Below are positions 1,173 to 24,985 of a stretch of 64,000 bases of DNA, one piece after another. Under the pieces are notes generated by a model. It saw only the letters and a list, made by a program, of their open reading frames with translations, was not told the DNA's origin and did not search any database. The translations under genes were made by a program, and so were the position numbers. The DNA lies in the NCBI RefSeq assembly GCF_003346775.1, contig NZ_CP031219.1, positions 744,001 through 808,000 of the forward strand, read 5' to 3'. The DNA comes from Malaciobacter mytili LMG 24559 (lineage in GTDB: Bacteria > Campylobacterota > Campylobacteria > Campylobacterales > Arcobacteraceae). Every line of letters starts with the position of its first letter. Position 1 is the stretch's first letter.

Positions 1173-1859
1173 ATGGCAGTAATTGTGAATGGGAAATGGC
1201 AAGACAAGGAGGGGAACTTTAAACACCCTGATATGGTTAGAGTTGACAAGCAAATAGAAGATGAGCTTGTTGAAGGGTTAGTAGAGTCTGCATTGGTTCT
1301 GCACAAACAAATGAAAGATTTTAAAATTAAAGCTTTTGCTGAGTGCTATGCATTTGTTGACTTACTTAGAAAAGAATATGAGATGGAACGAATTACTAGC
1401 ACTGTAGGAGCTGTAACTTTAAAAAGTTTCAATGGAATAAAAGAGGTGCAAATCCAAGTTGCAAAGTTGATTACTTTTGATCAAAAGCTAACTCTTGCAA
1501 AAGAAAAGATAGATGAGTACTTAACTCATAAAACAGAGAACTTAGACTCAGAAATCCAAACACTAATTACAAGAGCTTTTGATGTGAAGAATGGAAAGGT
1601 TGATGCAAAGCAGATTATAGGTCTTAAGTCATATAACATCACTCATCCAAAATGGAAAGAAGCAATGAGTATGATTGATGAAGCTACAGAGATTGCAGGA
1701 ACTAAATCATACATTAGATTTAAGCAAAGAGCAGGACTTAAAATAGATGGTGGAATGGAAACTATTGTTTTAGATTTAGCAGCACTTCCAGTTGAAGAAA
1801 GTGAAATTCAAACAGTTAAAAAAGAGCTTGTAAAAGAAAAGCAAGGAGATAATCAATGA
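1173..1859 (+). CDS. DUF3164-family Mu-like phage protein
   Basis: A 228-residue protein with the usual DUF3164 pattern: an N-terminal GKWQDKEGNFKHPDMV segment, a long helical middle, and the basic segment ITHPKWKEAMSMIDEA followed by GTKSYIRFKQR near the C-terminus. DUF3164 proteins are characteristic of the early region of Mu-like transposable phages; the molecular function is unknown. RBS TAAGGAG precedes the ATG. Its stop overlaps the amidase start (ATGA), so the two are translationally coupled. Confidence 0.8.
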   Translation: MAVIVNGKWQDKEGNFKHPDMVRVDKQIEDELVEGLVESALVLHKQMKDFKIKAFAECYAFVDLLRKEYEMERITSTVGAVTLKSFNGIKEVQIQVAKLITFDQKLTLAKEKIDEYLTHKTENLDSEIQTLITRAFDVKNGKVDAKQIIGLKSYNITHPKWKEAMSMIDEATEIAGTKSYIRFKQRAGLKIDGGMETIVLDLAALPVEESEIQTVKKELVKEKQGDNQ

Positions 1860-2455
1860 AAGTAGCAGTAATAATTGGACATAGTGAAACATCAAAAGGA
1901 GCTAGAAATAGCTCTTATGATGTAAGTGAGTTTGATTTTAATCAGAAGTTAGCTCATGATATAGAGCATAATTTTTGGAAGTTAAATCCTGAAGATGAGA
2001 TTATCGTTGTATATAGAGAAAATGGCTATAAAAATCTTCCACAAGAGATAAATGAATTAAATCCTGATTTGATTGTAAGTTTACATTGTAATGCATTTGA
2101 TACTGAAGCTTTTGGTTGTGAGATGCTTTATTACTATAAGAGTGAAAAAAGTAAAGAAGTTGCAAGACTTTTTCAAAATCATTTAGTCCAAAGATTAGAC
2201 AATAGAGATAGAGGTATTAAATCAAGAACAGTAGAAGATAGAGGAGGATATTTACTTAGATATACAAAAGCTCCTTGCATTATATGTGAACCTTTTTTTA
2301 TAGATAATGATGATGATTTTTTAAGAGCAGACGAGTGCTTCTTAAATGGTGATTTAACTAGATGGTTTTGTGAAGCAATTGACTTGAGTTTGAAGTATTT
2401 AAAAGGTCATAGAATGATAACTATTAACTTTAATGTAAGGAAAGAAAATGAGTAA
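1856..2455 (+). CDS. N-acetylmuramoyl-L-alanine amidase (Amidase_3), phage endolysin
   Basis: A zinc amidase that cleaves the bond between MurNAc and L-alanine in peptidoglycan. Visible ligands and catalytic residues of the Amidase_3 fold: His9 in VAVIIGH, Glu25, His77 in SLHCNA and catalytic Glu145 in CEPFF. There is no signal peptide, so export would need a holin or a host route. Unusually for a P2-type late module, it lies in the early Mu-like cluster, about 10 kb from the lysis-position genes at 12798-13799. Overlaps the DUF3164 gene by 4 bp and the next gene by 8 bp. Confidence 0.85.
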   Translation: MKVAVIIGHSETSKGARNSSYDVSEFDFNQKLAHDIEHNFWKLNPEDEIIVVYRENGYKNLPQEINELNPDLIVSLHCNAFDTEAFGCEMLYYYKSEKSKEVARLFQNHLVQRLDNRDRGIKSRTVEDRGGYLLRYTKAPCIICEPFFIDNDDDFLRADECFLNGDLTRWFCEAIDLSLKYLKGHRMITINFNVRKENE

Positions 2456-6755: not shown

Positions 6756-7203
6756 TATGAAAGCTGTTAAAAACTTACTTTATAGAATAGGTGCTGAAGC
6801 AGTAAATGAAGTAAAAGAGTTAGCACCTATTGGTAAAGGTGATGGAAAATCTTATCGAGGTGGAAACCTTAAAAAAGATATTCAAGTATTTGATGACAAT
6901 ATAGATAATTTAGAAGTATCCATAGGAAACTCAAAACTAGCTCCCTATGCTAAGTTTGTTCATTGTGGTACAAAACCACATAAGATTCAAGCTAAAAATA
7001 AAAGAGCTTTAAAAACTCCTTTTGGAGTTAGAAAAAGTGTAAAACACCCAGGAACAAAAGCACAACCTTACTTAGAAGATGGGCTTAAAAAATATATGTC
7101 AAGTGGTGGACTTGATAGAGCCTTGAATGACACAGCTCATGAAATAAAAGATGAGTTTATTGATGCTTTAAAAAAGTCTTTAAAAAATGCCACTATAAAA
7201 TAA
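6748..7203 (+). CDS. HK97 gp10 / Mu gpG-like virion morphogenesis protein
   Basis: 151 residues from ATG 6748, which follows GAGGAG by 7 bases (an in-frame TTG at 6742 is less likely). The middle reads APYAKFVHCGTKPHKI and later KHPGTKAQPYLEDGL, the pattern of HK97 gp10-type neck/tail-completion proteins and of Mu gpG. It would act in head-tail joining or tail assembly. The 3' end overlaps the convergent terminase gene by 11 bp, so the two transcripts meet tail to tail. Confidence 0.7.
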   Translation: MNDMKAVKNLLYRIGAEAVNEVKELAPIGKGDGKSYRGGNLKKDIQVFDDNIDNLEVSIGNSKLAPYAKFVHCGTKPHKIQAKNKRALKTPFGVRKSVKHPGTKAQPYLEDGLKKYMSSGGLDRALNDTAHEIKDEFIDALKKSLKNATIK

Positions 7204-8779
7204 TAGCTCCACCTTTACTCTCTCCACTCTCTCCTCTGTCTAAGAAGTCTAACTTCTTAGCAGCTAATGCTAAAGACCAGAATCTATCTGCGTGTCCATT
7301 TTTATTTTCATTTGAATAATAGATCATCTTTTGTGCTCCAGCTTTCTTTTTAATACTATGTATATCAGCAATAAGATATGGATCATTTGGAATAACTATC
7401 ATCTTATCTTCAAACATCTTTTTTAAGTTTAAAGCCATAAATTCTTTAGAACTTGCAGTAAATGATATACCTTCTACTCTACTTGGATATTTTCTTTCCA
7501 TACCCTCTGCTAAATCCATACCAATACCAGTTTTATCTATTCTCATATTAGCTTTAAGATATAAGTTTAAATGTTCTCTTAATACAGTCTTTTGAGCTTC
7601 AAAAGAAGCATTTTTAAACATATCTTGAATAGCAAGAACATATTTCCCTTCTAGTTTATCAAGAGCTGATAAGACAGATAAGTGTTTTACTCTACCTACA
7701 TCATAACCAGACCATAATACGTTTTGGTAAGGTGGTGTGTAATACATATAATCTTTAACACAAGACTTAATAAGTTTGATTGGGAATAAACTACTATCAT
7801 CATCTGCAAATACACACTCATACATCATAGCCCAAGAATCTGCATCAAATAAATCTTTTAATACAGCTACATCAACATCAAGACCATCTTTTACAGCATC
7901 GTAGATTGTTGTATGATGTCTTGAGAACATATAATATTTTTCTGTGTCAACACAAAGCTTATGGAATAAACTATCTTGCTCAAACGGAGTTGATAAAATA
8001 GTAATTCTTGCTTTTGTTTCTCCAGCTTTAACTGATGTAATAGATGGAATAAATGCTTCCCATATTCTTTTAGGATTTAAATACCATGCGAACTCATCCA
8101 TCCAAACAGAACCAGAGAACCCTTGAATAGTTCTAAAGTTATTAGCAAAGATATAAATAGTAGCTCCACTTGGAACTTTTATTTCACTTTTAGAACCATC
8201 AAGTAATATACCGAGCTTCTCTGCATGTTTGTGTATTTCTTCATACCATTTTAAAGCTTGAGTTTCTGAAGCTGAAAGGATAAGCTGATCCATACCAGAC
8301 ATCGCATCTACTAAACACTCTCCAGAACATCCATAAGTTGCACCAATTTGTCTTGACTTTAGCCATACTCTAAATCTACTGTTATCCTCAATGAACTTTC
8401 TTTGATACTCATATAGTCCATAATCTGGATGTAGCATTTTGTCTCTAAATACTTTTACATCTTCAGAATAGATAATCTCCTGATTAGCTTTTTTCTTTCT
8501 ATCAATCTTCTTAGATTGCTTTTCTAATCTCTCAAGAGATTTTGTAAGCATTGCAAGTTTTCTTGAGTTAGCTTCTGTTGGTGCTCTTTTTGAGATAGTC
8601 TCAATTTGCTTTTTAATATTCTCAATAGAGCTATCATTTGTCTGTTTATCTTTAGACTTTTTAATCCAGTTGTTAAGTGTTCCTCTGTTGATATTTAAAT
8701 CTCGTGATACTTCTATGATAGGAACACCAGCTTTGATAAGATTTAATGCTTTTTCTTTATCTTCTTTAGAATACGCCAT
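7193..8779 (-). CDS. Terminase large subunit (P2 gpP-like) with N-terminal HTH
   Basis: The packaging motor: ATPase plus nuclease that fills the procapsid. The first 60 residues form an HTH (KAGVPIIEVSRDLNINRGTL), a coiled segment follows, then the ATPase with KSRQIGATYG as Walker A and VWMDEFAWY as Walker B, and a C-terminal RNase H-like nuclease starting GYDVGR and ending with DRFWSLALA. The fused DNA-recognition HTH is as in P2 gpP. It runs leftward, downstream of the portal gene, matching P2 order Q-P. RBS AAGGA on the minus strand. Confidence 0.85.
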   Translation of the reverse strand: MAYSKEDKEKALNLIKAGVPIIEVSRDLNINRGTLNNWIKKSKDKQTNDSSIENIKKQIETISKRAPTEANSRKLAMLTKSLERLEKQSKKIDRKKKANQEIIYSEDVKVFRDKMLHPDYGLYEYQRKFIEDNSRFRVWLKSRQIGATYGCSGECLVDAMSGMDQLILSASETQALKWYEEIHKHAEKLGILLDGSKSEIKVPSGATIYIFANNFRTIQGFSGSVWMDEFAWYLNPKRIWEAFIPSITSVKAGETKARITILSTPFEQDSLFHKLCVDTEKYYMFSRHHTTIYDAVKDGLDVDVAVLKDLFDADSWAMMYECVFADDDSSLFPIKLIKSCVKDYMYYTPPYQNVLWSGYDVGRVKHLSVLSALDKLEGKYVLAIQDMFKNASFEAQKTVLREHLNLYLKANMRIDKTGIGMDLAEGMERKYPSRVEGISFTASSKEFMALNLKKMFEDKMIVIPNDPYLIADIHSIKKKAGAQKMIYYSNENKNGHADRFWSLALAAKKLDFLDRGESGESKGGAIIL

Positions 8780-8872
8780 ATTTTGATTTTATTCCTTTTT
8801 CGAGTATTTATATGAATAAATCGTTTCTTTGATTTTTAAACGGGTTTTAAACGCTTTTAAACACACATTTAC

Positions 8873-9931
8873 TTATTTGTTAAAACCTAAAATCTCTTTA
8901 GCTTCAAGAGTTGTCAAAATTTGTCTATCAACTAAGTTTGAAACCAAGTCACTATCATCTTTAAAATTTGTTACATCTATAAGCTCTGGCTCATGTGTAA
9001 TTCCAATGTGAGCAAATGAATCTTTAATAACTTTTGTTTTAGGTTTGATAGTTACTTCATTAAATGCATGAAGTTGATCTATTAACTCTCTTCCTCCACC
9101 TAATCCACCAGCACTCATAACACCTACTAATCTTGGAGGTACTCCATGAGCTGCAATAATCTCATCTCTTGTTACATTTTTAAGCTTCTCAAAACTCATA
9201 TCTTCTACACCACTTAATTTCTCAAGTCTTACTTTTGCTGGGTTTGCTCCATCTGATGTTTTACCAGTATGTAGAACTAAACTCTTATGAGCATTACTGT
9301 AGCCTTTGAAGTTAGAGCCAAAGAACTGTTTAAAAGAGTTTACTTGCTCTTGATTTGGTGAGCTGTTCTCAAATACAATACCGAAGCCCGGTCTAGCTCC
9401 ATTTTTAAAAAATGAGCTGTTATATTGGTCTGCTTGTTTTGTGGTGTTGATTTGTTCTAGTGTTGTAAGATAATCTGGCTCTCCATAATATTTAGATGAT
9501 GGGGAGTGATATTTAAAATGAAAACCATCTAATTTAACTGGCTCTTCATTATTCTCTGGAATTTGATATATCTCTTTGTTCTTATTAACTCTACCTTGAA
9601 AGCCTAAGACATGATATAAGTAAAAATCACTTTTAGTTCCAGCTTGTTCTAAAAAAGCATTTCCATATATTTCCATATCCATAGTAAGAGCATATAAGAA
9701 ATAGTTTGCAATCTCATTATCTGGAATAAACTTCTCTAAGTCACTATTAGTATATTGAGATAGTAGTGCTGCTTTTAATCTAATACTTCTTTGATGATAT
9801 ACATTGAAGTAATAAAACTTTAATAATAAATCAAAGTTTATATGTGGATCAATAGTTCCATTTGAATTTTGACTATCTTTCCCAACTGTTTGCCTAGATT
9901 CTTTTGCACCTTTTAAAATTAAATCACTCAT
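8873..9931 (-). CDS. Phage portal protein (P2 gpQ / PBSX family)
   Basis: Forms the dodecameric portal through which DNA enters the head. The PBSX/P2-type signature FEKLKNVTRDEIIAAHGVPP followed by RLVGV is present at about residues 255-280, and the middle has the typical DYLTTLEQI and NGARPGF elements. At 352 residues it is of the usual P2 gpQ size. Transcribed leftward and divergent from the protease-scaffold gene. Its leader repeats the element found upstream of gemA. Confidence 0.85.
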   Translation of the reverse strand: MSDLILKGAKESRQTVGKDSQNSNGTIDPHINFDLLLKFYYFNVYHQRSIRLKAALLSQYTNSDLEKFIPDNEIANYFLYALTMDMEIYGNAFLEQAGTKSDFYLYHVLGFQGRVNKNKEIYQIPENNEEPVKLDGFHFKYHSPSSKYYGEPDYLTTLEQINTTKQADQYNSSFFKNGARPGFGIVFENSSPNQEQVNSFKQFFGSNFKGYSNAHKSLVLHTGKTSDGANPAKVRLEKLSGVEDMSFEKLKNVTRDEIIAAHGVPPRLVGVMSAGGLGGGRELIDQLHAFNEVTIKPKTKVIKDSFAHIGITHEPELIDVTNFKDDSDLVSNLVDRQILTTLEAKEILGFNK

Positions 9932-10144: not shown

Positions 10145-10978
10145 GTGCCAAAGTTATCAAATATTGCTATTACTCATATTTCACTTGTAAAAGCTGGAGC
10201 AAACAAGAAGTCGATTATTTATAAATCTTCTGATGGTGAGCCACCTTATGCAAGAAATATTGAGATTAAGAAAAGTGATGATGAGCAAGGGATTATTTAT
10301 GGGATTGTATATGCACCAAATGAAGTTGATACAGACGGTGATTATACAGATGTAGATGAAATTTTAAAAGCTTCATATGCATTTATGAAATCAAGGTTTA
10401 CAAATAATGTTGATAAAGACCATTCATTTGAAGTTGAGAAAGCTTTTGTAGCAGAGAGTTGGATTGTAAAAGAGAATGACTCTATTTTCCCAGATGAGCC
10501 AGTAGGTTCTTGGGCTGTTGGAATCAAGCTTGAAGATGAAGAGTTAAAAAAAGGTGTAAAAGATGGAGATATTGCTGGTATCTCTATGGCTGGAACTGCA
10601 ACTAAAACAGAGGAAGAAAATCCAACTGTAAAAAAAGCAGATGAGAAAAGCTTTTCTTTAAATGATGTTTTAACAATGTTTAAAAAAATGTTCTCTTCTA
10701 CATCTTTTGAAGTTAGAGGCCATCATTACAACGATAATGTTGATAAATCTCAAAAACAACAAGGAGAAAATAACGAAATGCAAAAAGAAGATTTTGAAGA
10801 TGCTTTAAATAAAGCAATGGAACCAATGACTAAGACTATCAAAGATTTAAAGTCTAAGGTTGAATCTTTAGAAAAGAGTGACAAAGAGACAAAAGAAGCT
10901 CTTAAAAAGAGTAGACAAAATGGTGATGTAGAAATCAAAAAAGAAGAAAAAGAAGATCCATCGAAAGGAATTTTATAA
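10145..10978 (+). CDS. XkdF-like prohead protease fused to scaffold (P2 gpO position)
   Basis: The N-terminal half matches XkdF-type putative phage serine proteases: THISLVKAGANKKS, then GIIYGIVYAPNEVDTDGDY, VDKDHSFEVEKAFVAESWI and GSWAVGIKLEDEEL, GDIAGISMAG. The last 80 residues are a charged coiled coil (ALNKAMEPMTKTIKDLK..), typical of an internal scaffold that is cleaved out. It would template capsid assembly and mature it. GTG start at 10145 behind GGAG. Overlaps the capsid ATG (TAATG). Confidence 0.8.
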   Translation: MPKLSNIAITHISLVKAGANKKSIIYKSSDGEPPYARNIEIKKSDDEQGIIYGIVYAPNEVDTDGDYTDVDEILKASYAFMKSRFTNNVDKDHSFEVEKAFVAESWIVKENDSIFPDEPVGSWAVGIKLEDEELKKGVKDGDIAGISMAGTATKTEEENPTVKKADEKSFSLNDVLTMFKKMFSSTSFEVRGHHYNDNVDKSQKQQGENNEMQKEDFEDALNKAMEPMTKTIKDLKSKVESLEKSDKETKEALKKSRQNGDVEIKKEEKEDPSKGIL

Positions 10979-12138
10979 TGGAAGAAAATGCATTAAGTGA
11001 AATTTTAAAGACAGGTGGATTAACACCTCAAGAAGCCACTTTAAATGGAGAACTAACTCCAAAGCAGGGTAGAGTTTTTGTAAGCACTATTGTTGCATCT
11101 GATGCTTTACTTGGAAAAGTTACTACTGATATTACAGGAAAACTTACTAAAGAGAGAAGTGGTTTAGATGTTGCAAAAGGAATGCTAACAAGACACGTGT
11201 CTGGTGAAACTCCTCCAGATGAGAATATGAAAAAGCTTGGAAAGATTGGTTGTACTCTTGATATGACTAAAGGTGTTGAGTTAAATGCAAAAATTAACGA
11301 TGATACTTTAGAAGATGCAAAAGATAATCCAAACTTTGACAAAGAGCAATTTAATGCATTTGGTCAAATTTTCTCAAATGACTTACTATATTTAGGAGTT
11401 GTTGGAAAAGCTGATAATCCAGCAGTAGATGCTCCTTTTGATGAACTTGCAAAAGGTTGGATTACTGTAGCAAAAGAGAGTGATACAACTAATAAACCAA
11501 CATCTTCAAATGAATCTATTCTTTATAGATTAAAGCATTTAGTTAAAAATGCTCATGATGATGTTAAAGGTTCTGCTGCAATTTTAATGAGTGCAAGTGA
11601 CTATATGGATTATCAGTTTGAAATTGCTGAGAAGTTTAAAAGTCTTGCAACGCTATTAAAAGCAAAAGAAAAAGAGTTTATGGGGTTTGAAATTGAGACT
11701 AGACCAGATGTTCCAAATGGTACTTATCTTTTAACACCTCTTAAAAACATGGTCTTTGGTATATCATCAAAAGTTAAGAGAAAAAGATGGTACGACAATG
11801 AAAAAGATTGTCTTAGATATAAGTTTGTAGTTTATCCAGACTATGAGTTTGATATTCATAAGTATGTAACTTACATGACAATTGTTTCTTTAACTGTTAC
11901 TTCTTATGAAGTATCTGTTGCAGTTGGTGCATCGAGTCAAAGAACTGTATCAAGTGCAGCTGGAAATGGACTTGCTGGTGTTACTGCAATCTCTAGAGAT
12001 GAAACAGTTGCAACTGCTACTTATGATAGCTCAAATGGAAAAATTACTGTAACTGGTGTAGCTGAAGGGTCAACAACTGTTGTAGTTGATGATGGTACTT
12101 CGTACAAAGAAATTAAAGTAACAGTAACAGCAGCTTAA
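10978..12138 (+). CDS. P2-like major capsid protein with C-terminal Ig-like (Big_2) domain
   Basis: 386 residues. The first about 305 residues fit P2 gpN-type capsid proteins: KQGRVFVSTIVASDALL, helical middle, and GKADNPAVDAPFDEL with KGWI. Residues about 306-386 form a beta-rich domain, SLTVTSYEVSVAVGASSQRT, then ATATYDSSNGKITVTGVAEG and a final TVVVDDGTSYKEIKVTV, the bacterial Ig-like Big_2 pattern. Such domains decorate the capsid surface and can bind carbohydrate or stabilise the shell. Directly follows the protease-scaffold, as expected. Confidence 0.8.
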   Translation: MEENALSEILKTGGLTPQEATLNGELTPKQGRVFVSTIVASDALLGKVTTDITGKLTKERSGLDVAKGMLTRHVSGETPPDENMKKLGKIGCTLDMTKGVELNAKINDDTLEDAKDNPNFDKEQFNAFGQIFSNDLLYLGVVGKADNPAVDAPFDELAKGWITVAKESDTTNKPTSSNESILYRLKHLVKNAHDDVKGSAAILMSASDYMDYQFEIAEKFKSLATLLKAKEKEFMGFEIETRPDVPNGTYLLTPLKNMVFGISSKVKRKRWYDNEKDCLRYKFVVYPDYEFDIHKYVTYMTIVSLTVTSYEVSVAVGASSQRTVSSAAGNGLAGVTAISRDETVATATYDSSNGKITVTGVAEGSTTVVVDDGTSYKEIKVTVTAA

Positions 12139-12148
12139 GAAGTAGAAA

Positions 12149-12487
12149 ATGGAAGCAGTTAATATTGAAGATTTAAAGGGATTATTCCCTTTAAGTTTAG
12201 AAGCTAAAGCAATTACTCCTCACTTAAATAGAGCAATTTGGGATTATAACCATGTTGAGTTCGAAGATGAGATTCAACAGGTAGAAGTTATTGGATCAAA
12301 AGCTTTTTATTATCTTGCTCCATTACTTTGGGTTGATATGCAAGATAGAGTTAATGAGTATGAGGAGTCACTAGAGACATTCAAGGATGTTAAGACTTTT
12401 CAATCTTATTGGTTAGATCGTTCAAACTCTGCTTTGAATAAAACTAATAATGATGAAACGGACGAGGTATCGTATTTATGCATTTAA
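12149..12487 (+). CDS. Head completion / head-tail adaptor (P2 gpL position)
   Basis: A 112-residue helical protein right after the capsid gene. It has the short helical layout of gpL/gp6-type adaptors (ITPHLNRAIWDYNHVEF, then FYYLAPLLWVDMQDRV). No strong motif, so the call rests on size, helices and position. Overlaps the next gene by 10 bp. Confidence 0.5.
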   Translation: MEAVNIEDLKGLFPLSLEAKAITPHLNRAIWDYNHVEFEDEIQQVEVIGSKAFYYLAPLLWVDMQDRVNEYEESLETFKDVKTFQSYWLDRSNSALNKTNNDETDEVSYLCI

Positions 12488-12798
12488 ATGAAACTGAAGC
12501 AAAAACAGCAATTGAAACTCTAATAAAAGAACATGCTGGAACTGACTTTGAAGTAGTAATTTTAAGAAGAAAGCCTAAAGACCTAATTTCTAAATACGTG
12601 TTTTTTGGTTTAAAAGTTGCTTCTAAAAATAGTGAAGTTTTTTTTAATGATTTAATGATAGCTACTGCTAGTACCGATTCATTGGAAGTTATTGAAAGTG
12701 AAATTGTAGAAGAGAACAAAAAGATAAAAGACATCTTTTTGATTAGAGCTGAAGTAGAAGTTGTAAAAATTGAAGAACAAGACAAAAAGGTATTGTAA
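12478..12798 (+). CDS. Phage protein of unknown function in head-completion position (106 aa)
   Basis: Soluble mixed alpha/beta protein starting MHLNETEAKTAIETLIKEHA. No recognised domain. Overlaps the previous gene by 10 bp and the next start by TAATG, so it is a translated part of the late operon, between head completion and the lysis-position genes. It could be a tail-terminator or neck protein; this is not shown by the sequence. Confidence 0.5.
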   Translation: MHLNETEAKTAIETLIKEHAGTDFEVVILRRKPKDLISKYVFFGLKVASKNSEVFFNDLMIATASTDSLEVIESEIVEENKKIKDIFLIRAEVEVVKIEEQDKKVL

Positions 12799-13199
12799 TG
12801 GAAAAGTTACCTTTTTATGCCCCAAAACAATGGTGGGAAAATAGAGACAAAGCAATTAAAGAAGATTGTAATGGCTGTGGAAGTGAACTTGATCTAAGTG
12901 GAAAGCTAGTGCCTAATACTCTATATGGTTTAGATATTAGCAAAGAGTGTTGTTGCCCGCATGATTGGGGTTATAAGTATGGAAAAACATGGTTGGACAA
13001 AATGTTTACTGATGTGATGTTTTTATACAACATGACAGCAAAGATTATTAATACTGGTGGATGGCTAGTTATTCCAAGGCTTTTAAGAGCTACGAAGTAT
13101 TTTATTGCTGTTGTAAAGTATGGTGATAAATCTTTTGCTGATGGTAAAGAGTTTATTTCAAGGGAAAAAGAAATTACTTTTAAAGGAGAATTTCGATGA
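12798..13199 (+). CDS. Phospholipase A2-like phage protein
   Basis: 133 residues. The core holds NGCG (25-28), LVPNTLYGLDIS, and then CCCPHDWGYKYG with the His55-Asp56 pair and Tyr59 of the phospholipase A2 motif CCxxHDxxY; DKMFTD follows. PLA2 enzymes hydrolyse the sn-2 acyl bond of phospholipids with a calcium-bound loop. Similar small proteins occur in other tailed phages. The gene lies where P2 keeps its lysis genes, before a lipoprotein and a membrane protein, which suggests help in disrupting the cell envelope at lysis or delivery with the virion. Activity is not proven; the calcium loop is only partly like the classical one. Confidence 0.65.
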   Translation: MEKLPFYAPKQWWENRDKAIKEDCNGCGSELDLSGKLVPNTLYGLDISKECCCPHDWGYKYGKTWLDKMFTDVMFLYNMTAKIINTGGWLVIPRLLRATKYFIAVVKYGDKSFADGKEFISREKEITFKGEFR

Positions 13200-13447
13200 A
13201 AAGATTATTAATCTTATTTGCTGGTTTATTGGCTATTGGTTTGTTTGCTGGATGTGAGAGTATTAAAAACCTTACTCCTGAACAAAAACAAAAGATTGTT
13301 GAAACTGGATACAAAGTGGGTAAAAAAGGTGTGCAAACTTTTGTCTCTGAAGAAAAAAGAGAGAAGTATCATACTAAAGAATTTGATAATGCAGTGACAA
13401 CTGGCTATGACATCTATAAAGATGTAAAGAATAAAGAAAAAAAGTAA
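13196..13447 (+). CDS. Phage lipoprotein in lysis position (spanin-like candidate)
   Basis: 83 residues with a lipoprotein signal peptide: MKRLLILFAGLLAIGLFAGC, lipobox LFAGC with Cys20. The mature part is short, charged and helical (LTPEQKQKIVETGYKVGKKG). It overlaps the PLA2-like gene by 4 bp and is followed by a single-pass membrane protein, so a lipoprotein plus inner-membrane pair, as in spanins, is possible. Host outer membrane anchoring is likely from the signal; function is inferred. Confidence 0.6.
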   Translation: MKRLLILFAGLLAIGLFAGCESIKNLTPEQKQKIVETGYKVGKKGVQTFVSEEKREKYHTKEFDNAVTTGYDIYKDVKNKEKK

Positions 13448-13453
13448 ATTGTT

Positions 13454-13493
13454 CTATAAGTGTACGAAACAAGATGTTTTCATGCACTTATAG
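13454..13493 (+). other. Hairpin between lipoprotein and membrane-protein genes
   Basis: CTATAAGTG (13454-13462) pairs exactly with CACTTATAG (13485-13493), with a further weaker GAAAC/GTTTTC pairing inside. It lies in the 61-base gap inside the lysis-position genes and may be an attenuator or RNA-processing site. Confidence 0.45.
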
Positions 13494-13508
13494 GTTTTAG
13501 GAGTTTTT

Positions 13509-13799
13509 ATGGGTGAAATAAGTAGTTTATGGGGTATTGCTTGGGGTGTTGGAACTATCATCGCAATAATTGCAATTACAGTTTATATGACTCGAAGAAA
13601 CACCTCTGTTATTGACTCTTTAAAACAGAATGAAATTGCAGAATTGTATAACATAGTTAATAGAAAAATGGATGAAGATAAAGCTCGTAATACTTTTGTA
13701 ACTAAAGAAGTAAATACAGAGCAAATGAAACATATTGATACTTCTATTAGTGAGATAAAAGAGTATCAAAAAGAGATATTAGGATATTTAAGAAAATGA
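13509..13799 (+). CDS. Single-pass membrane protein with coiled-coil tail, lysis position
   Basis: 96 residues. An N-terminal membrane segment at about 8-27 (IAWGVGTIIAIIAITVYM) is followed by a charged coiled coil to the C-terminus. This is the layout of an i-spanin or of a small holin-associated protein. AGGAG precedes the ATG. Its stop overlaps the baseplate V gene. With the lipoprotein upstream it may form the envelope-disruption pair; this is inference from topology and position. Confidence 0.55.
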   Translation: MGEISSLWGIAWGVGTIIAIIAITVYMTRRNTSVIDSLKQNEIAELYNIVNRKMDEDKARNTFVTKEVNTEQMKHIDTSISEIKEYQKEILGYLRK

Positions 13800-14476
13800 T
13801 TTCCTTGTCAGAACTAAAAAGGCGATTAGAAAATATTGTTCAAATTGGTAGTGTACATGAAGCTAAGATTATAGAGGGACATCATTTAGCCAGAGTTGTT
13901 TTAGATGACGATGGAATTAATAAAAGAGTAAGTCCATTCTTACCTATTAAGAGTTTAGCTAATTCTTTTGGAAAAGCTTTCTTTCCAGTTCGTTCAGGAG
14001 AACAGGTCATAGTAATAAGTCCATTTGGCAATATTAATGGTGGATTTATTATTAGATCTATTTTTCATAATAAGTGTAAGGTTCCAACTGGAGCTAATGA
14101 GCACACAACAGTGATTGAGTTTGAAGATGGAACTAAAATGTTTTATGATTCAAAGGCTTCAAAATTAGAAGTAGATGCAGTAAAAACTATTAATATTTAT
14201 TGTGTTGATGTAAATGTAGAAGCTTCAAAACAAGCTTATGTAAAAGCACCTAATACGATTATTGAAAGTAAAACTTTAGTTAAAGGTACTTTAACTGTTG
14301 AGGGATTAACTTCTTTGCTTGGAGGAATGAAAGTAATTCCATCTGAAGGAGTAACAATTGGTGCAGAGTTTGATTGTGATATTAAAACTACAAAAAATAT
14401 TAGTGCAGATGGAGAGATAAGTGATAAAAAGGGTTCACTTACAAACCATACAAATAATGGATACTTAAGGGATTAA
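13796..14476 (+). CDS. Baseplate assembly protein V (spike), P2 gpV-like
   Basis: 226 residues with the gpV plan: N-terminal OB-like part (GHHLARVVLDD, FFPVRSGEQVIVISPFGN), then a repetitive beta-helix stem (NIYCVDVNVEASKQAYVKAP and following) and a short polar tip. It forms the trimeric membrane-piercing spike of the contractile tail. Overlaps the previous gene by ATGA and abuts gpW, the normal V-W-J-I order of P2. Confidence 0.8.
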   Translation: MISLSELKRRLENIVQIGSVHEAKIIEGHHLARVVLDDDGINKRVSPFLPIKSLANSFGKAFFPVRSGEQVIVISPFGNINGGFIIRSIFHNKCKVPTGANEHTTVIEFEDGTKMFYDSKASKLEVDAVKTINIYCVDVNVEASKQAYVKAPNTIIESKTLVKGTLTVEGLTSLLGGMKVIPSEGVTIGAEFDCDIKTTKNISADGEISDKKGSLTNHTNNGYLRD

Positions 14477-24100: not shown

Positions 24101-24202
24101 CTACAAACCACAGCCATCTTCCCCAAGCTGACTGCATACGAATATTAACGAAAAAAGTTGCGAGCATTTAAATATGTGACTTTTTGGAACGGAGAAAAAA
24201 GA

Positions 24203-24985
24203 ATGCAGACTACAAAACTAAAAGCACCCTTTGCATGGGTAGGTGGTAAATCAAAACTAGCCAAAGATATTGTTGAGAAAATACCAGAGAAACATACTAC
24301 TTATATTGAAGTTTTTGGAGGAGCTTTAAGCGTTCTATATGCTAAAGAAAAATCAAGACTTGAAGTTGTTAATGATATAAATGGTGAGCTTATCAATTTA
24401 CATAGATCTATAAGAACTAATCCTGAGACATTAAACTTTTATTTAAATCAACTGTTGTGTTCAAGAGAGCTATTTTTTGCTATTAGAGATGGACATATGA
24501 AACCACGTAATAAAATAGAATCTGCGGCTTTTTATTTATATAAATTAAATCAATCATTTGGAGCTAAAGGTGATAGCTTTGCAATGAATGCTAAAAGTGG
24601 TCGTAAACCAAAAGATATATATAAATCATATCAAAAGTGGAGTAAACGTCTAAAAGGTGTTACTATTGAGAATATGAGCTTTAATAAGTTAATACCTTTA
24701 TATGATAAAGAAGAGGTATTCTTTTATGTAGATCCTCCTTATGTATCAACAGAGAGCTATTACAAAAATACTGGTAGATTTGGAAGAAAAGAGCATGAGG
24801 AATTAGCAACACTATTATCTCAAGTAAAAGGTAAGTTTTTACTATCTTATAATGATTGTGAACTTGTAAGAGAGCTGTACAAAGACTTTAATATAATAAC
24901 CACAAAAGAGATTAATTATACACTTGGAGCGAATATGCACAAAAAGAAAAAGAGTGTTAGGGAAGTTTTTATTATGAATTATTGA
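24203..24985 (+). CDS. Dam-type D12-class DNA adenine N6-methyltransferase
   Basis: 260 residues from ATG 24203 behind GGAG. Motif I region FAWVGGKSKL (10-19) with FGGALSV, and motif IV DPPY at 177-180, identify an N6-adenine methylase of the D12 (Dam/DpnM) class. A phage methylase at the right end resembles the position of mom in Mu and probably protects phage DNA from host restriction. The target site (often GATC) cannot be read from the sequence. No restriction enzyme gene is adjacent. Confidence 0.85.
   Translation: MQTTKLKAPFAWVGGKSKLAKDIVEKIPEKHTTYIEVFGGALSVLYAKEKSRLEVVNDINGELINLHRSIRTNPETLNFYLNQLLCSRELFFAIRDGHMKPRNKIESAAFYLYKLNQSFGAKGDSFAMNAKSGRKPKDIYKSYQKWSKRLKGVTIENMSFNKLIPLYDKEEVFFYVDPPYVSTESYYKNTGRFGRKEHEELATLLSQVKGKFLLSYNDCELVRELYKDFNIITTKEINYTLGANMHKKKKSVREVFIMNY

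Follow-up and report, generated by a model that had tools for sequence, protein, structure and literature searches.

Phages without a recognisable spanin make up about 13% of 677 surveyed phages, and their way through the outer membrane was stated to be an open question (PMC6139136), which a 2026 study likewise leaves open (PMC12819732). Thirty-one spanin-less genomes encode a lipoprotein without an i-spanin (PMC6139136), and this is the pattern expected of the phospholipase A2 (PLA2)-lipoprotein pair described here. PLA2 and DUF1353 proteins are already known as enzymes, and for phage WO a lysis role has been proposed for a patatin phospholipase gene (PMC9203015). The DUF1353 protein TtaP acts as a PLA2 and requires its distal Asp, the D85A variant being inactive, and its expression in the natural host gave no envelope phenotype; the TtaP islet also holds TtsA, described as a phage muramidase homologue (PMC11525133). 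Prophage DUF1353 proteins were noted in the same work without a proposed role in phage lysis (PMC11525133). In the open-licence literature we found no earlier paper that assigns a lysis role to a histidine PLA2 or to DUF1353, and none in which a histidine PLA2 with a lipoprotein serves as the outer-membrane step in phage lysis.

The window, by which we mean the whole stretch of 64,000 nucleotides of Malaciobacter mytili LMG 24559 that was analysed, carries a prophage with PLA2-like and lipoprotein genes embedded in its late genes, between the head and tail modules. We propose, with a probability of roughly 0.7, that the two together disrupt the outer membrane enzymatically, in place of spanins, in this prophage, both the replacement and the activity being inferred. 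The relevant features are:

1856..2455, plus strand: N-acetylmuramoyl-L-alanine amidase, the prophage endolysin, unlinked (phrog_435 endolysin, E 7.7e-38)
10978-12138: major capsid gene, left of the two small ORFs
12149..12798, plus strand: two small ORFs after the major capsid gene, left border of the lysis slot
12798..13199, plus strand: putative PLA2-like lysis protein, 133 aa; no signal peptide; NGCG 25-28 (N25-G28), C52, H55, D56, Y59, distal D72
13196..13447, plus strand: lipoprotein, 83 aa; lipobox LFAGC; ATGA overlap with the PLA2 stop
13509..13799, plus strand: N-terminal-TM coiled-coil protein, 96 aa, probable holin; holin position; weak PHROG bacteriocin/holin matches
13796..14476, plus strand: gpV-like baseplate assembly protein, right border of the lysis slot (phrog_9992, 9e-15)

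The gene order of the original prediction, a lipoprotein and then an N-terminally anchored coiled-coil protein behind the PLA2-like gene and an amidase about 10 kb away, was confirmed, the amidase gene lying about 10.3 kb upstream. The phage had been called P2-type, which holds for its head and tail genes; however, a Mu-like transposase A/B pair 0.5-3.3 kb upstream of the window start makes it a transposable phage with P2-type head and tail genes and not a plain P2-type one, so that the prophage combines Mu-like replication with P2-like morphogenesis genes. Its terminase and portal genes (7193-9931) are on the minus strand and the remainder on the plus strand. The major capsid protein has a Big_2 immunoglobulin-like domain at its C-terminus. 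An inverted repeat at about 13454-13493 (CTATAAGTG...CACTTATAG), between the lipoprotein and N-TM protein genes, is possibly a regulatory hairpin separating two lysis genes. At the end of the prophage (24158-24985) lies a gene similar to a DNA adenine methylase-like gene that, in six loci (L037, L044, L050, L054, L069 and L086), recurs within a few genes of the PLA2 cassette.

Besides NGCG, the protein encoded at 12798-13199 carries CCCPHDWGYKYG with H55-D56. As a single query it had no match in Pfam, PHROGs or the PDB and passed no Pfam cut-off, so its likeness to PLA2s is revealed by the family profile only. Relatives were drawn from viral and genome collections, part of the sampling using a His-Asp-containing pattern, to give 72 non-redundant sequences, all of which have C27, G28, C52, H55, D56, Y59 and N78; the distal D72 is conserved in 71. 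When 399 genomes were searched with a profile, without any His-Asp requirement, every member recovered also retained the pair. In an hmmsearch against the PDB the family profile matched the Streptomyces PLA2 (1faz/1kp4, 4.6e-8) and three other group XIV-like PLA2s (4aup, 1.7e-5; 7ygk, 4.2e-5; 8k1w, 1.3e-3). With residues kept in 72 relatives and a profile E-value of 4.6e-8, the observation is not due to chance. PF09056 (Phospholip_A2_3) is matched at E <= 0.1 by 43 of 63 family members, not by the window member alone, and at the same threshold none of the 63 matches a patatin profile. An AlphaFold2 model of the window protein (pLDDT 87.3, pTM 0.80) has group XIV PLA2s as its top four VIA-align matches (Z 10.4, 8.5, 8.2 and 8.2; next row 4.8), and PLA2s take ranks 1-4 in Foldseek, but with weak E-values (0.011 to 1.2). 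NGCG is conserved, but the loop after it is modelled with low confidence (pLDDT < 50 at residues 31-34).

Membership of the group XIV-like histidine PLA2 superfamily is well supported by these comparisons and the predicted fold, while enzymatic activity is inferred. The original prediction of a PLA2-like gene was to stand or fall with the fold and the conservation of the His-Asp pair; it held on both, and the proposed search against PLA2 families succeeded through the family profile, not the single sequence. It had also named His55-Asp56 and NGCG as the PLA2 core. His55 and Asp56 are indeed invariant and NGCG is conserved, but the Asp of the catalytic dyad is the distal D72, D56 beside the His being the adjacent, metal-site Asp. 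Elsewhere, a PLA2-like C-terminal domain stands behind an Rhs-repeat protein (L098; G366:C1:2253060-2253335), where the fold apparently serves as a polymorphic toxin domain. A stand-alone gene beside non-phage genes (L099, reverse complement 1387-1803), with CCVAHDYAY and a distal ADHA motif, looks from its motifs like a further distant PLA2-like family.

By sequence, the family appears related to DUF1353 (PF07087) without being a member, DUF1353 being a diverged cousin. A weak match to DUF1353 was obtained for 53 of the 63 family members (best 2.9e-5) and none at E <= 1 for the window protein; D72 of the window family corresponds to D85 of TtaP. A DUF1353 search of the host's own genome found none. 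In Campylobacterota phages, DUF1353 genes pair with the same lipoprotein and endolysins. One such cassette, DUF1353-lipoprotein-LydA-GH108 (L142), is that of the isolated Nitratiruptor phage NrS-3. Locus L067 has a homologous lipoprotein-holin-endolysin set (66% DNA identity to L142), but with a PLA2-like gene, and just upstream of this gene is an ORF of 54 aa, of which the first 30 residues match the beginning of the L142 DUF1353 protein at 67% identity. The PLA2-like gene in L067 has displaced DUF1353 in place, leaving a 30-aa remnant, and such an exchange argues that the cassette needs the shared activity. The PHROG family phrog_1158, labelled 'tail assembly chaperone', is matched by 48 of the 63 members, and many DUF1353 genes in phage records bear the same name; given the activity of TtaP, the label looks wrong for these. 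Of the phages on the spanin-less list, Pseudomonas phage Lu11 carries a DUF1353 gene, not beside recognised lysis genes. The spanin-less Helicobacter phages KHP30, KHP40 and 1961P were considered as DUF1353 carriers and are not among the matches listed; other H. pylori prophages do carry DUF1353.

A recognised endolysin was found within 6 kb in 32 of 72 PLA2-family loci, the other 40 having none in that range. In 29 of the 32 it lies at most 1 kb from the PLA2 gene and on the same strand, many of the genes abutting (binomial 8e-20), and the linked endolysins are of five unrelated types (GH24, GH108, two M15 types and Amidase_3). The loci were sampled unevenly, some being near-identical across records. 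The cassettes include PLA2-lipoprotein-LydA-phage lysozyme (L075), PLA2-lipoprotein-GH108 (L092), PLA2-lipoprotein-LydA (L094) and Phage_holin_4_1-PLA2-lipoprotein-GH108. A second locus in the host genome has a compact PLA2-lipoprotein-LydA holin-M15 endolysin cassette. It belongs to a second phage-derived stretch, running from 16071 of L157 (G000:C1:625000-644999) to 2997 of L158 (G000:C1:645000-660000), with a repressor, tail-fibre-like genes and the full cassette and without visible head genes; this stretch is either a remnant or a lysis/tail element that stands alone. Across the family the gene is physically linked to those of holin and endolysin, while the amidase of the window prophage lies 10 kb off. 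From gene neighbourhoods, the case that the PLA2-like gene belongs to phage lysis cassettes is strong, and the lysis reading is much better supported than the window alone could have told.

The lipoprotein encoded at 13196-13447 has the lipobox MKRLLILFAGLLAIGLFAGC. In 19 of the 72 loci an ORF with a lipobox begins at the PLA2 stop, an arrangement seen for 7 of 631 other genes. A scan of the collection with the lipoprotein alignment was unproductive, no stretch being conserved enough, and a whole-genome profile search was used instead. With the lipoprotein profile only, 397 genomes yielded seven strong matches, all immediately behind a PLA2-like or DUF1353 gene. A single genome holds two of these matches (L163/L182), with the order DUF1353-lipoprotein-N-TM coiled-coil protein-GH24 lysozyme, which reads as the trio of the window with an attached endolysin; recurrence of the same three genes in relatives had been proposed as a check. 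The linkage supports the lipoprotein as a constant partner of PLA2-superfamily genes, as far as gene order can indicate.

Prophages of the same order as the host were located through the baseplate gene gpJ, and in each the slot immediately before gpV was examined. In the host's own family (L136 and L137) this slot contains, directly before gpV, an i-spanin-like gene overlapped by an o-spanin lipoprotein gene, and a holin gene; L124 and L133 have a spanin pair and an N-TM coiled-coil protein, and in L131 a spanin pair is accompanied by an endolysin and a holin-like protein, the assignments in L124, L136 and L137 having PHROG support. The same slot in the window is occupied by PLA2, lipoprotein and N-TM coiled-coil protein. 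The lysis position assigned from the window alone is in agreement with these spanins in sister prophages and with the holin-endolysin cassettes of relatives. A rule-based detector found a spanin pair in 0 of 21 loci with PLA2 or DUF1353 plus lipoprotein, against 7 of 16 slot loci without them, and by the same lipobox/TM rules none was found in the window. The rules can miss odd pairs, as in L151, where a pair was missed and seen by eye. Within the window, the prophage encodes no short membrane or lipobox proteins other than the lipoprotein and the N-TM protein, if one antisense ORF, judged implausible, and a lipobox-like string inside a tail-tube-like gene are set aside. Strict exclusivity of PLA2 and spanins is rejected: Thiohalocapsa phage MD03 has a PLA2 of this family and, 3.4 kb away, a separate annotated spanin pair, and the DUF1353 loci L151 and L153 have spanin-like pairs. 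In some phages PLA2 therefore adds to spanins, and replacement is not universal.

The 13509-13799 protein has a single N-terminal TM helix followed by a charged coiled coil, and positive residues just after the helix predict a C-in topology by the positive-inside rule, on sequence grounds only. It is 34% identical to the protein in the same slot of L138 (E 1e-13), and an N-TM coiled-coil protein recurs upstream of the GH24 lysozyme in L163/L182. Homology with the N-TM coiled-coil protein of L124 was considered and was not supported by comparison. Given the same-slot homologue in L138 and a position taken elsewhere by LydA-type holins, it is the best holin candidate and probably the holin, an identity that is inferred.

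One lipoprotein and one N-TM coiled-coil protein are also the parts list of a spanin, and the two are neighbours here. They could accordingly be an ordinary two-component spanin (o- and i-), the PLA2 being an accessory that weakens membranes, and in some phages PLA2 or DUF1353 is indeed kept together with spanins. We consider this unlikely, though it is the most serious of the alternatives. In the window the lipoprotein precedes the TM protein, whereas Rz1 normally comes after Rz or is embedded in it, and the positive charges behind the TM helix suggest a C-in orientation, the opposite of an i-spanin (N-in/C-out). Moreover, the same kind of lipoprotein accompanies a LydA holin with no N-TM coiled-coil protein in L009, L067, L075, L094 and L142; it tracks PLA2 and not the TM protein.

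Where the original prediction left a lipid-degrading step in either envelope rupture or virion entry, rupture is now supported, and entry, not excluded, is less favoured. An entry enzyme like the PLA2 domain of parvovirus capsids would suit Vibrio phage 1.097.O, whose PLA2 gene lies between the terminase gene and a head completion gene, and a viral structure search of the model returned densovirus and parvovirus VP1 matches, all of them weak. We nevertheless hold it improbable, as the gene repeatedly adjoins endolysin and holin genes in unrelated phages, is exchanged with DUF1353 inside a lysis cassette, and shows no clear fusion to structural proteins in the PLA2 family. Still less probable is a role in lysogenic conversion, as a moron gene directed at other cells. 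A precedent exists in the PLA2s secreted from some Gram-positive prophages (cited in PMC11525133), but the window protein has no signal peptide, its gene is coupled by ATGA to a phage lipoprotein gene in the late region between head and tail modules, and the family is linked to an endolysin in 29 of the 32 loci where one is recognised. A PLA2 fold that has lost its enzymatic function for a structural role is equally hard to credit. It would agree with the 'tail assembly chaperone' label of phrog_1158 and of many phage records, but the label is a name and not a test, the catalytic residues are conserved across deep divergence, and TtaP, a DUF1353 member, is active in a D85-dependent manner (PMC11525133).

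Under the preferred reading, an enzymatic step in place of spanins, PLA2 would accumulate in the cytoplasm alongside the amidase endolysin; this storage, like that of a holin-dependent endolysin, is inferred from the lack of an export signal. Low free calcium and reducing conditions in the cytoplasm would keep it inactive, as inferred from PLA2 biochemistry, and the C27-C52 disulfide might be unformed there, adding to the quiescence. The holin, most likely the 13509-13799 protein, would then open the inner membrane, letting endolysin and PLA2 reach the periplasm, where cutting of the peptidoglycan by the endolysin would give PLA2 access to phospholipids from the periplasmic side. PLA2 would hydrolyse those of the outer membrane, an inferred target, to lysophospholipid and fatty acid until the membrane breaks, and the outer-membrane lipoprotein may dock or activate it, a role that is likewise inferred. 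The pair would in this way stand in for Rz/Rz1 spanins in this prophage.

More broadly, a histidine PLA2 with a dedicated lipoprotein could be a third, enzymatic class of outer-membrane disruptor besides spanins and disruptins, widespread as the window family and DUF1353 and explaining part of the spanin-less phages, and the muramidase and PLA2 of the typhoid toxin islet could be a domesticated phage endolysin-PLA2 pair; to this wider proposal we give even odds. If true, it would assign a function to many of the phage proteins currently named DUF1353 or 'tail assembly chaperone', give a directly testable answer to the question of how spanin-less phages breach the outer membrane, and offer a clue to why the typhoid toxin islet pairs a PLA2 with a phage-type muramidase; the role of this PLA2 was left unassigned by the authors of PMC11525133.

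Among known systems, DUF1353/TtaP, of the same superfamily, shares with the window family the His-Asp core and distal Asp, a similar size and the lack of a signal peptide; TtaP, however, lacks the conserved cysteines of secreted PLA2s, whereas the window family has CNGCG and C52. The group XIV secreted PLA2s (Streptomyces violaceoruber 1faz/1lwb, Tuber borchii 4aup; PF09056) are the best sequence and fold matches and have the same dyad. Bacteria or fungi export these with the help of signal or propeptides, while the window protein is unexported and encoded in a phage lysis cassette. LysB of mycobacteriophages is a mycolyl-arabinogalactan esterase acting on mycobacterial envelopes, and its fold is unrelated to that of the window PLA2. 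The likeness is that of a lipolytic enzyme of a lysis cassette handling an outer lipid layer (PMC5707550).

Rz/Rz1 spanins resemble the pair in genomic slot, in the lipoprotein component and in the presumed outer-membrane step after peptidoglycan cutting (PMC6139136), but they fuse membranes without enzymatic activity, whereas here a lipid hydrolase is proposed in place of the i-spanin. The disruptin of phage phiKT is also a phage-encoded, non-spanin outer-membrane disruptor (PMC12819732); unlike the window PLA2, it is a short amphipathic antimicrobial peptide and not an enzyme. Wolbachia phage WO has a proposed lysis module of a phospholipase and a holin-like N-TM coiled-coil protein beside tail genes (PMC9203015). 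Its enzyme is of the patatin family and not a histidine PLA2, and is not known to have a lipoprotein partner, and the module is without an endolysin in a host without detectable peptidoglycan (PMC9203015). Colicin release, finally, combines a small lipoprotein with a phospholipase A to permeabilise the envelope and release a cytoplasmic protein (PMC9517006), but there the phospholipase is the outer-membrane enzyme of the host, whereas in the window both components would be phage-encoded and the PLA2 is soluble.
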